Part shown: positions 1,800-59,675 of the stretch, piece after piece
How the letters are laid out: each line of letters begins with the position of its first letter
Position numbering within the stretch: position 1 is the stretch's first letter
Assembly: GCA_903932145.1 (NCBI GenBank)
Contig: CAIZFE010000038.1
Coordinates: 1 to 64,000, forward strand
Direction of reading: 5' to 3'
DNA from: an uncultured Rhodopila sp.
Lineage (GTDB): Bacteria > Pseudomonadota > Alphaproteobacteria > Acetobacterales > Acetobacteraceae
Length of the DNA: 64,000 nt
Translations under genes and position numbers: made by a program
Notes under the pieces: generated by a model
The model's input: the letters and a program-made list of their open reading frames with translations, nothing else
The model's database searches: none
What the model was told of the DNA's origin: nothing

Positions 1800-1851
1800 G
1801 GCATGCACACCAGGGTTGACATATAAAAACTTATTTGTTAGTTTTACAGAC
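1800..1851 (+). promoter_or_regulatory. Promoter with leaderless geometry (paralogue 1)
   Basis: TTGACA at 1816-1821, a 17-base spacer, TAGTTT at 1839-1844, then exactly 7 bases to the ATG at 1852. Transcription should therefore begin at or next to the A of the start codon. No Shine-Dalgarno sequence precedes the ATG. The same arrangement precedes the paralogue at 58612-59433. The block GGCATGCAC-N2-CAGGG just upstream of the -35 hexamer is shared as well, and contains the palindrome GCATGC. Confidence 0.7.
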
Positions 1852-2670
1852 ATGGAGCATACGGCGCCAAGCATGACCCGGCCTGCCCCGCCCGATCCCG
1901 CACAGGATCGGGCCGGCGGCACCATACCGGAACGTCTCGCCGCCCTGCTGCATGTCGTCCGCGTCCTGCTCGGCCACGGCCGCCGCCTTGTTGAGATCGT
2001 CCCGGACCGCGCCGCCAACGTGGAATTCGCGACGCTGGCGGGCGTTTGGGGGACCTACATGCTTCCGACCATTCTCGCCCGGCTACAACGCGGTATCCTG
2101 CGGGCGATGGCGTTGGAGCGTTACCTGCTCGCCCGCGCCGCAAAAGGCCGCGAGATCGCATACGTGTATGCGCGCGAGCGCACGCAGGCCAAGCCGGCAG
2201 CGGAACCGCACGAGGGGGAGCCGGCCGCACGAACGGCGAAACCGCCCGCCAAACCGCAAACGGAGCCGCAAGACGCGCCCGGACCCAAGCGCCCCTCGTT
2301 CGATCCGGACGATCTCCGTATCCCCGGGCCCGAGGAACTCGACGTCGAAGTCCGCCGCCGTCCGTTCGGGCGTACTATCCTCGCGATCTGCATGGACCTC
2401 GCCGTCATCCCCGGTTTCTGCACCGGCCATTTCTGGAACCAGATATCCGATACGCTCCAGTTCTACGGCGGCAGTTTCACGACGCTGTTTAAGATACGGG
2501 CGCACCGCGAGGTATCGTTTCAGAAAGAGCGCGACAAGAAACCGGAAACCTGGAACTTTGCCTGGAAGCACCCGCCACTGGAGACGGTTCGGCAGGTGAT
2601 TGGATATTTGATCGGCGAGGTTCCCATTCTGGACCCGTTCGATCCGCTGCGGGCCACCGCTCCTCCCTGA
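1852..2670 (+). CDS. Orphan-family protein, paralogue 1
   Basis: Protein of 272 residues that I do not recognise. It is the sister of the 273-residue product at 58612-59433; by eye only about 16 of the first 118 residues differ. Layout: short N-terminus (MEHTAP), a helical region with LLHVVRVLLGHGRRLVE and RGILRAMALERYLLARA, a variable Pro/Ala/Glu-rich linker (about 105-150), then a conserved C-terminal part with FDPDDLRIPGPEELD, RTILAICMDLAVIP, FWNQISDTL and DPFDPL. There is no signal peptide or clear membrane anchor. The ATG at 1852 is chosen because both paralogues share MEHTAP and the same -10-to-ATG spacing. It is transcribed alone. Confidence 0.8.
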   Translation: MEHTAPSMTRPAPPDPAQDRAGGTIPERLAALLHVVRVLLGHGRRLVEIVPDRAANVEFATLAGVWGTYMLPTILARLQRGILRAMALERYLLARAAKGREIAYVYARERTQAKPAAEPHEGEPAARTAKPPAKPQTEPQDAPGPKRPSFDPDDLRIPGPEELDVEVRRRPFGRTILAICMDLAVIPGFCTGHFWNQISDTLQFYGGSFTTLFKIRAHREVSFQKERDKKPETWNFAWKHPPLETVRQVIGYLIGEVPILDPFDPLRATAPP

Positions 2671-2988
2671 TTCGCAGTCCCCGAACGTGTGTCGTACCCT
2701 CTGATTCCGGGGGCGCGTTCGTGCGCGCTATGGCCGGATACAGGGTGAATGGCGGAGCCGGGACTTCGCCCGCCCTTCGAGTCAACACCCGCTTGTCCGG
2801 GCCATGACGACGGGGAAACGATTTCCATCTGACGCGGTTATTCCCTGGCGTCACCTTAGTGGTTCTTTATGTTCGCCGGCCCCGCTCCCGGACCGCCCGA
2901 TTTGCCCAATCGCTTTGAAGCCTATCTACTCTCCGCCACATCGGCAGACCCAAAAGCCGAACCAGGGGAACAAGGAGCGTCACAACCC
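2671..2988. other. Intergenic region with conserved 3' flank and repeat remnant
   Basis: No gene seen. The first 70 bases include CCCTCTGATTCCGGGGGCGC followed by a GCGC-rich stretch. Nearly the same string follows the stop of the paralogue (minus strand, about 58550-58590), so the duplicated unit includes some 3' flank. CTTGTCCGGGCCATGACG at about 2790-2807 is one arm of the palindromic repeat family. The promoter of the MFS gene should lie in the last 150 bases. Confidence 0.5.
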
Positions 2989-57793: not shown

Positions 57794-58150
57794 ATGACAT
57801 CGCATGAGCGTCTTGATTGCCTGAAGTGCCCGGCCCTGTGCTGTCGCATGGCGGGCTACGTCCGCGTCAGCCGCGACGATATGCGGCGTTTGGCCAAACA
57901 CCTGAAGATCAGTGTCGCGGATTTCGAAAAACGGCACGTCGTCGAGGTCACGAACCAGGGTGAGAAGCGGATCAAGGAAGGCTTCAAAACCTGCCAGTTC
58001 CTGACCGAGGACCACCGCTGCGGCGTCTATGAGGCTCGGCCGCACGACTGCCGCGGCTACGTCTGCTGGAACCAGCCTGACGAAACCGTTTACGGATATG
58101 CAGTCTTCTTACAGACCGGCGTAACGAAATTACGCGAGCATGAAAAATAG
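57794..58150 (+). CDS. YkgJ-type cysteine cluster protein
   Basis: Protein of 118 residues with Cys9, Cys12, Cys16 and Cys17 (CLKCPALCC) and a second group (FKTCQF, RCGVYEARPHDCRGYVCW). This is the CxxCxxxxC zinc/iron-cluster pattern of the UPF0153/YkgJ family, of unknown function. It starts 45 bases after the cupin-fusion gene on the same strand. The ribosome-binding site is unclear. Confidence 0.82.
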   Translation: MTSHERLDCLKCPALCCRMAGYVRVSRDDMRRLAKHLKISVADFEKRHVVEVTNQGEKRIKEGFKTCQFLTEDHRCGVYEARPHDCRGYVCWNQPDETVYGYAVFLQTGVTKLREHEK

Positions 58151-58194
58151 CGGCCGGTCATACCGGTCCGCGTTGATGCCGACTCTCGCCCCCA

Positions 58195-58230
58195 ATCGTC
58201 ATGGCCCGGACAAGCCGGGGCTATGACGAT
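58195..58230. repeat. Palindromic repeat, compact copy
   Basis: ATCGTCATGGCCCGG, loop ACAA, and a right arm ending CTATGACGAT form a nearly perfect hairpin with one extra base. It is a half-length member of the family at 5059-5137, downstream of the cysteine-cluster gene, where it could act as a terminator. Confidence 0.7.
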
Positions 58231-58270
58231 GGGGCAAGAGTCGACATCAGCCGCCGCTGGTACAATAGAC

Positions 58271-58446
58271 TCCTCTGTGGACCTTCGAGATCCTCGTGCT
58301 GCCTCCGTGATGAAACTTTCCTTATTTTACTGACTGCCACCGCAAACCGCCCGCCCCCTTGACGATCGCGGACCCCGGACGCACAGGCCGGGAAACAAGG
58401 AAAAATTCATCACGAAGGCAGCACGAGTATCGCGAAGGGGCACGGA
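58271..58446. repeat. Inverted pair of CACGGAG-type repeats
   Basis: The copy at about 58271-58324 and its imperfect reverse complement at about 58397-58446 share CATCACGAAGGCAGCACGAG. The spacer is about 70 bases. It is related to the pair at 55387-55585, so two intergenic regions 3 kb apart carry the same type of inverted arrangement. Confidence 0.7.
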
Positions 58447-58611
58447 GCCAGGGGATCAAATGCGGATGCCATGGCAATCAGTTGAAACCACGAACGCAAA
58501 ACGGTCCGCGCATCACTACAGCAGCGCCCGATCCCGATGATGCTTCGGCGCGCGCGTGCGCGTGCGCCCCCGGACTCAGAGGGTTCGACGCAGATCCCGG
58601 GAGGATGTTAG

Positions 58612-59433
58612 TCAGGGTGGGGCGGTGGCCAGTAACGGATCGAACGGGTCCAGCGTTGGCGGCTCACCGATCATGTACCCCAGCACTTGGCGGACGGTAT
58701 CCGGTCCCGGGTGCCTCCAGGCAAACCCCCAGGTGTCCGGCTTCTTGTCCCGCTCTTTCTGAAACGATGTCTCGCGGTGTTCCCGGATTTTAAACAGGGT
58801 CGTGAAGCTGCCGCCGTAGTTCATGAGCGTGTCGGATATCTGGTTCCAGAAAGTGCCAGTGCAGAAACTCGGAATGACCGCGAGGTCCATGCAGATCGCG
58901 AGGATGGTGCGGCCGAGCGGGCGGCGGCGCACCTCGGCGTCAAGTTCCTCGGGCCCGGGGATACGGAGATCGTCCGGATCGAAGGCGGGGCGCCTGGGCG
59001 CCATCTCTTCAGGGCCGGGCTTGGCCTGGCCACCCGGCGACCCGGCGTCTTTCGCCCCCTCCGCCGCCCCTTCTGACGGTTCGGCTGGCGGCTTGGCCGG
59101 CGTGCGCTCGCGCTGGTACACGAGTCCGATCTCGCGGCCTTTTGCGGCGCGGGCGAGCAGATACCGCTCCAACGCCATGGCGCGCAGGATGCCGCGCTGG
59201 AGCCGAATGAGGATGGTCGGCATTGTGTAAGTGCCCCAGACCCCGGCCAAAGCGGCGAATTCCACGTTAGCGGCGCGCTCCGGCACCGTCTCAACAAGGC
59301 GGCGGCCGTGGCCGAGCAAGACCCGAACGACATGCAGCAGGCCGGCGAGGCGTTCCGGTATGGTACGGCCGGCTCGGTCCTGCGTAGGATCGGGCGTGGC
59401 CGGTCGGGTCATGGGTGGCGCCGTATGCTCCAT
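58612..59433 (-). CDS. Orphan-family protein, paralogue 2
   Basis: Protein of 273 residues, sister of the 272-residue product at 1852-2670. The N-terminal 118 residues and the C-terminal half are nearly the same; the Pro/Glu/Gly linker (about 105-150) differs in sequence but not length class. Shared blocks: GLLHVVRVLLGHGRRLVE, RAANVEFAALAGVWGTY, FDPDDLRIPGPEELD, FWNQISDTL, FTTLFKIREHRETSFQKERD. The ATG at 59433 gives the same start MEHTAP and lies seven bases after the -10 hexamer. Function unknown. Confidence 0.8.
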   Translation of the reverse strand: MEHTAPPMTRPATPDPTQDRAGRTIPERLAGLLHVVRVLLGHGRRLVETVPERAANVEFAALAGVWGTYTMPTILIRLQRGILRAMALERYLLARAAKGREIGLVYQRERTPAKPPAEPSEGAAEGAKDAGSPGGQAKPGPEEMAPRRPAFDPDDLRIPGPEELDAEVRRRPLGRTILAICMDLAVIPSFCTGTFWNQISDTLMNYGGSFTTLFKIREHRETSFQKERDKKPDTWGFAWRHPGPDTVRQVLGYMIGEPPTLDPFDPLLATAPP

Positions 59434-59485
59434 GTCTGCATTACTAACATTATCGTTAATACATGTCAACCCTGACGTGCATGCC
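59434..59485 (-). promoter_or_regulatory. Promoter with leaderless geometry (paralogue 2)
   Basis: On the minus strand TTGACA (59464-59469), a 17-base spacer, TAGTAA (59441-59446), seven bases, then ATG at 59433. GGCATGCAC (59477-59485) and CAGGG lie upstream as in paralogue 1. The spacers differ in sequence while the hexamers, spacing and upstream block are kept, pointing to selection. The spacer/-10 region also contains the dyad TAAC-N6-GTTA. Confidence 0.7.
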
Positions 59486-59551
59486 CCGCAGGCGGATCGC
59501 GTTTTTTGATGGACCTGGCAGGCCGAGAGGCGTGCGAAGGAAGAGTTTTCT

Positions 59552-59646
59552 AAGGCAGATGAACACGGATAAGCAGAGATGAACGCGGATGAGCCGCGAA
59601 GCGCCCCATCGTCATGGCGCAGACAAACCGGGCCATGACGATGGGG
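59552..59646. repeat. CAGATGAACACGG repeat followed by a palindromic element
   Basis: 59552-59592 carries two related units, CAGATGAACACGGATAAGCAG and GAGATGAACGCGGATGAG, similar to the widespread motif also seen at 11228-11282. 59604-59646 is a compact member of the palindromic family (CCCCATCGTCATGG, loop ACAA, complement). Together they fill the gap before the HSL-type hydrolase's stop codon. Confidence 0.6.
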
Positions 59647-59675
59647 CGGACGTCGGCATCAACGCGATGCTCGTA

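Follow-up and report, generated by a model that had tools for sequence, protein, structure and literature searches.

The window, by which we mean the whole 64,000-nucleotide stretch of DNA analysed here, carries two copies of one gene. Copy 1 (1852..2670, forward strand) encodes a basic protein of 272 aa that is predicted to be all-helical and has no known family; copy 2 (58612..59433, reverse strand, ATG at 59433) encodes 273 aa, and the two proteins are 80% identical. The initial annotation had described both open reading frames together with a common upstream architecture, and both are present. TTGACA is followed after 17 bases by TAGTNN and after another 7 bases by the ATG. In copy 1 the −35 hexamer is at 1816..1821 and the −10-like TAGTTT at 1839..1844, 7 bases before the ATG at 1852; in copy 2 the respective elements are at 59464..59469 and 59441..59446 (TAGTAA), again with 7 bases between hexamer and ATG. 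The block GGCATGCAC-N2-CAGGG is found upstream of both promoters (1800..1815, forward strand; 59470..59485, reverse strand). The stop codon is followed by a conserved 3′ block (2671..2730, forward strand, in copy 1, where it includes CCCTCTGATTCCGGGGGCGC; 58545..58611, reverse strand, in copy 2) that is common to the copies of this genome. Copy 2 is flanked by a palindromic intergenic repeat of the CCCCATCGTCATGGC...CATGACGATGGGG type at 58169-58250 and 59603-59666, and a repeat with ATGAACACGGATAAGCAGAGATGAACGCGGATGAGCC lies at 59556-59599; related sequence occurs upstream of the family copies L010, L014 and L022.

A feature absent from the initial annotation is an inverted repeat, TAAC-N6-GTTA, inside the spacer and overlapping the −10 element. 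Copy 2 has the consensus (59445..59458, reverse strand), and copy 1 is one base off with AAAC-N6-GTTA (1827..1840, forward strand). Together with the −35 hexamer it makes up the pattern TTGACA-N5-TAAC-N6-GTTA that is contained in the family promoters. The exact pattern, with a spacing of N4 to N7 behind TTGACA, has 38 sites in the 6.66 Mb genome, of which 37 are directly before a family copy, and the reversed pattern used as control has none; the signal therefore exceeds chance. The sole exact site away from a family copy (G000:C34:62678-62703) is perhaps a chance occurrence. In 38 regularly spaced copies of this genome, which were chosen by their fit to the motif, TTGACA is conserved to 97-100%, TAAC to 95-100% and GTTA to 97-100%, and TTGACA starts 35 or 36 nt before the ATG. 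The statement that the spacers differ is thus half true: it holds for the remaining spacer bases (47-95% conserved in the same copies) but not for the two half-sites. The GGCATGCAC block, which lies outside the operator, is also conserved in these copies (68-97%), and conservation thus reaches beyond the operator. From its position over the promoter we infer that the window-type element is a site for a repressor.

The operator was found at no more than two mismatches in 67 of 103 distinct upstream regions (41/42 from this genome, 26/61 from others), compared to 0.6 of 103 expected from shuffled regions. The single region of this genome that was scored without it, that of L011, was measured from a shifted start, and the operator is actually present. 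Of the 103 regions, 21, none of them from this genome, have an exact GTTC-N7-GTTC; L189 was counted in both classes, with a weak operator match, and 16 regions have neither element. In relatives of the operator type TTGACA starts 35-37 nt before the start codon, and comparison of the upstream regions of relatives revealed that in proteins about 45% identical the operator is retained with its spacing to the start, whereas the GGCATGCAC block is not: among the inspected loci, it is present in this genome and, slightly changed, in the related genome G011 only. Conservation of the upstream region in homologues, on which the initial annotation had staked its proposal, thus applies to the geometry and the operator but not to the GGCATGCAC block, and two clades have a different operator altogether, which goes in part against the proposal. 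One clade has 11 members with the operator (L067, L079-L081, L083, L084, L087, L092, L102, L114 and L115, of which L083, L087 and L092 were placed by similarity), and in 10 of them the distance between the half-sites is 7, against 6 elsewhere. Both spacings are present in genome G009, in which L096-L098 have a distance of 6 and L102 has 7. Exceptions are L099, also from G009, and L042 of the genome studied here, which have a distance of 7 although their clades have 6.

The two genes had been taken for a pair of paralogues, a family kept in two copies. This is ruled out, since the genome, that of a Rhodopila-like member of the Acetobacteraceae, has 47 family loci. Protein search and profile search each gave 51 matches, and four split matches (contigs C59, C65, C89 and C112) were merged by hand. 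The reading frame is intact in 36 of the 47 loci, including L011, which has no ATG at the usual place; six are broken or fragmentary (L041, L043, L047, L052, L053 and L054) and five are cut by a contig end (L046 and L048-L051). Among the full-length matches, identity to copy 1 is 67-80%. In a quick tree, which was used to define the clades and came with long-branch warnings, the copies of this genome and those of G011 fall into a single radiation whose inner branches are short and whose end branches are long.

Outside this genome the family has a narrow distribution. Among the matches listed, it is present in 15 of 59 genomes, the present one included, all from the one genus that contributed 33 of the 59; match numbers elsewhere in this genus run from 0 to 41 per genome, fragments counted, with a single match each in G007, G010, G020, G021 and G032. 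In G015 and G028 (loci among L063-L095) contigs often stop within a family copy or beside it, so that copy numbers there are uncertain and some copies may be near-identical. The contigs with matches mostly belong to metagenome-assembled genomes of Acetobacteraceae, and one is labelled Rhodopila sp. The records of two same-genus genomes with family loci, G031 (L135, CAMCDA010000025.1) and G032 (L132, CALQHT020000026.1), bear the titles Asaia bogorensis and Nitrosovibrio sp. Nv4, which look wrong. In samples of the wider family, with up to six candidates scored per genome, 11 of 397 genomes matched, and 10 of 397 with a broader profile. These counts do not support the expectation that Acetobacteraceae commonly have similar proteins. 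The matching genera were the own genus and clearly one other (g76), with weak matches (E 1e-7 to 5e-5) in one or two further genera. In a class-level sample, 2 of 385 genomes matched, namely the present one and one weak match at E 1e-4. A search of viral contigs, plasmids and phages gave no homologues, and a phage or plasmid origin was rejected; a literature search for such a family found nothing among the matches listed.

The copies are old and yet maintained. Over 630 pairs of intact-frame copies of this genome, the median dS is 0.51 and the median dN/dS 0.235; by residues, dN/dS is 0.21 for 1-108, 0.54 for 109-150 and 0.17 for 151-272. Nearest neighbours (dS 0.20-0.52) have a dN/dS of 0.16-0.52 with a median of 0.26. 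In a simulation without selection, 1.3 of 36 copies stay free of stop codons. From these ratios and the simulation it follows that the copies are kept and not decaying, and purifying selection on them is well supported.

The description as an unrecognised family stands, as Pfam, NCBIfam, PHROGs, PADLOC and PDB sequences gave no trustworthy match, and a fold search of PDB and BFVD gave none at E 0.001. Isolated hits to Pfam DUF6479 (1/34 members, E 0.0011), NCBIfam SepX_GlpR_2 (1/26 members, E 0.01), PADLOC PDC-S67 (1/34 members, E 0.049) and the PDB ribosomal protein L12 (E 0.17) were taken as chance. AlphaFold2 predicts helical regions at about residues 27-98 and 160-250, connected by a variable linker of low confidence (mean pLDDT 74.7). 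Six members tested are basic, with a pI of 8.5-11.4; this is compatible with nucleic-acid binding and proves nothing.

Beyond the unit of promoter, gene and 3′ block, the flanks of the copies are mostly unrelated, with subgroups sharing up to about 200 nt upstream. The ends of homology, read from pairs at ≥90% DNA identity, were −41 and +89 for L039/L040, −38 and +46 for L114/L115 and −39 and +67 for L106/L107; a left end of −50 was seen in L083/L087/L092 and right ends of +180 to +188 in five G028 copies. Extreme left ends were −2 (L009/L014) and −136 (L050/L051), and in L080/L081 homology ends inside the gene. Overall, left ends range from −2 to −136 and right ends from +42 to +188. A search of 80 of the about 470 G011 contigs plus three earlier loci (0.77 Mb) located both flanks for 3 of the 47 loci. 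Two of these sites are empty in G011. At copy 2, the neighbouring genes are about 45 nt apart in G011 versus about 1.5 kb here, the missing segment (58149..59674) comprising copy 2 and dispersed palindromic repeats; at L025, the flanks are directly adjacent and 1.4 kb is missing. The intergenic region of L042 is occupied in G011 as well, and the copy there is no closer to L042 (dS 0.46) than to four other copies compared (0.38-0.50). Since other intergenic repeats are present in the missing segments too, these segments may have been built up stepwise. Homology ends vary, and at about 1.4-1.5 kb the segments absent from the empty sites exceed the unit in length, so that the ends of the unit can be given only approximately. 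Two candidate elements were discarded. A conserved RNA hairpin behind the stop codon was no better than shuffles in this genome (z below −2 in 1/36 copies; 4/12, 4/16 and 2/8 for the 3′ block in other groups). The repeat ACCCGATTGCCCTG, counted at ≤3 mismatches within 300 nt, was found 5′ of 10/42 and 3′ of 14/38 copies of this genome versus 12/177 background tiles, and some of these matches simply reflect the conserved 3′ flank. Six G028 copies (L076, L077, L078, L085, L088 and L091) have an inverted repeat, CCAGGGCAATCGCATTTG...CAAATGCGATCACCCTGG, at the right end of their shared region, about +100 to +180 behind the stop codon; it may represent a small repeat element in its own right.

Several findings would be expected of a single-gene transposable element, whose protein would be a new transposase or recombinase able to multiply its unit, with the operator restraining its expression: the family members occupy unrelated sites and lose similarity close to the unit, two of these sites are empty in a related species, contigs of G015 and G028 break off inside copies, and, among the matches listed, the number of matches varies strongly between genomes of the genus. 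Nevertheless, we regard this as unlikely. Inspection by eye of the junctions of recent pairs, whose ends vary, and of the L025 empty site revealed neither terminal inverted repeats nor a target duplication. No trustworthy match to a transposase or recombinase domain was obtained from Pfam, NCBIfam, PHROGs or PADLOC, the sole hit being HTH_Tnp_1 in 1/34 members at E 0.31. Moreover, the large intact fraction and purifying selection long after duplication are unlike old transposon copies.

Two other clades of the family, B and C, carry the alphaproteobacterial LexA box GTTC-N7-GTTC instead of the operator. In clade B, TTGACA is about 36 nt before the ATG and an exact LexA box ends at the start codon in 10 of the 11 members with ATG; the twelfth member, L169, has a GTG start with the box directly before it. 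In clade C, 8 of whose 22 members are outside the tree and were assigned by similarity, the box is 34-41 nt before the ATG, exact in 11/22 and within one mismatch in 20/22. Shuffled sequences would give an exact box in 0.018 members of clade B and 0.002 of clade C. As the position of the box differs between the two clades, it may have been acquired separately. The same motif is the SOS consensus given for Caulobacter (PMC12700426), and recA and lexA of the genome studied here carry it too. LexA was rejected as regulator of the window group, because the host lexA and recA have the canonical box and an exact box is found in 0/42 family upstream regions of this genome. If the LexA box is the operator in clades B and C, these copies should be switched on by DNA damage, and we infer that the family responds to DNA damage, with SOS induction of these two clades. 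Two clade C-like loci, L100 and L108, have neither operator nor LexA box and carry GGATATTAATCC before the start, possibly a third operator. Judged from the flanking sequence, one clade C copy is positionally conserved: in six genomes (L037, L106, L109, L110, L112 and L141) it is upstream of one same sequence, which we take to be the start of an aspartate aminotransferase-like gene.

The initial annotation had read the two genes as a leaderless pair under special translation control, for example under stress. Its observations on the start region were sound. The promoter-to-ATG geometry is conserved across much of the family and fits transcription from the ATG, and an SD-like 4-mer is found at −20..−4 in 1 of 38 copies of this genome, so that leaderless expression is plausible. 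The stress part is supported by the LexA boxes of other clades, but the window group lacks them. Special translation control as such is not upheld, and the reading as a whole appears improbable to us. SD-like 4-mers are scarce in other open reading frames of the window also (5/20, with unverified starts). Leaderless mRNAs are frequent in alphaproteobacteria, with 375 in Caulobacter (9.6% of the CDSs), where they are translated as efficiently as others and do not serve as a stress device (PMC4117421), and 171 in Sinorhizobium (PMC3616915), so leaderlessness alone is ordinary. The conserved bases lie over the promoter as an inverted repeat, whose effect would be on transcription, and the element is better read as a transcriptional operator. 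Least probable, and disfavoured, is that the upstream conservation is functionless and reflects only the shared ancestry of duplicates: the copies do share the GGCATGCAC block, their 3′ flanks and, in subgroups, longer 5′ flanks, but at their age several spacer bases have diverged with TTGACA, TAAC and GTTA nearly invariant, and the elements stay at the same distance in relatives with about 45% protein identity.

That this is a large, selected and dispersed orphan family with a private operator, and with SOS boxes in other clades, is well supported. We favour, with somewhat more belief than doubt, the reading that it is an orphan gene family which has been amplified in the Rhodopila lineage, is controlled by a repressor and is probably linked to stress. 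Each copy would be a self-contained unit of about 1 kb that comprises core promoter, open reading frame and short 3′ block. The operator would overlay the spacer and the −10 element, transcription should begin at the ATG, and a repressor bound to the operator would hold the copies off together and release them together. In the window group the operator would be TAAC-N6-GTTA, with the family protein itself or a dedicated regulator as candidate repressor; in clades B and C it would be the LexA box, and DNA damage should switch these copies on. New copies would be made when the unit, together with flanks of variable extent, inserts into intergenic DNA; they would afterwards remain under purifying selection. 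As repressor of the window group, a dedicated unlinked regulator is quite conceivable; self-control by the family protein is a more tentative proposal, and something else may take the remainder. Two points speak for self-repression: the operator belongs almost exclusively to this family, and in most cases the half-site distance goes with the protein clade. The narrower version of the favoured reading, a one-gene cassette with its own operator, copied dozens of times, that would be repressed in trans by its own product in the window group or by LexA in clades B and C, all copies being released together, leaderless, upon DNA damage, strikes us as doubtful; the exceptional half-site distances of L099 and L042 lower its probability. 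If it were true, it would be a new kind of genetic unit, in which a diversified, selected set of paralogues is released at once.

It is unusual for a genome to have about 36 copies of an orphan gene that are intact, diverged and under selection, each at a site of its own and all with one private operator. The exchange of this operator for LexA boxes in two clades provides a testable link to DNA damage, and the family, as a natural series, lends itself to studies on the copying and retention of a regulated gene unit. It resembles the LexA (SOS) regulon in that clades B and C have the box over or beside the core promoter, as host recA and lexA have it too, but the window group has another inverted repeat instead of a LexA box, and we know of no SOS gene that is amplified to dozens of dispersed copies. 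With the leaderless mRNAs of Caulobacter and Sinorhizobium it has in common a promoter placed for transcription from the start codon and the lack of a Shine-Dalgarno sequence; it differs in that a whole amplified family keeps this geometry, with the operator packed against the start. Like insertion sequences, the family is multi-copy, at unrelated places, with empty sites and strongly varying copy number; unlike them, it has no detected transposase domain, terminal repeats or target duplications, and its copies are under purifying selection. It is also similar to lineage-specific paralogue expansions, since, as judged from the quick tree, one clade radiated in one lineage and was maintained. 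However, its copies are dispersed singly and not in arrays, and its operator is found almost nowhere else in the genome.
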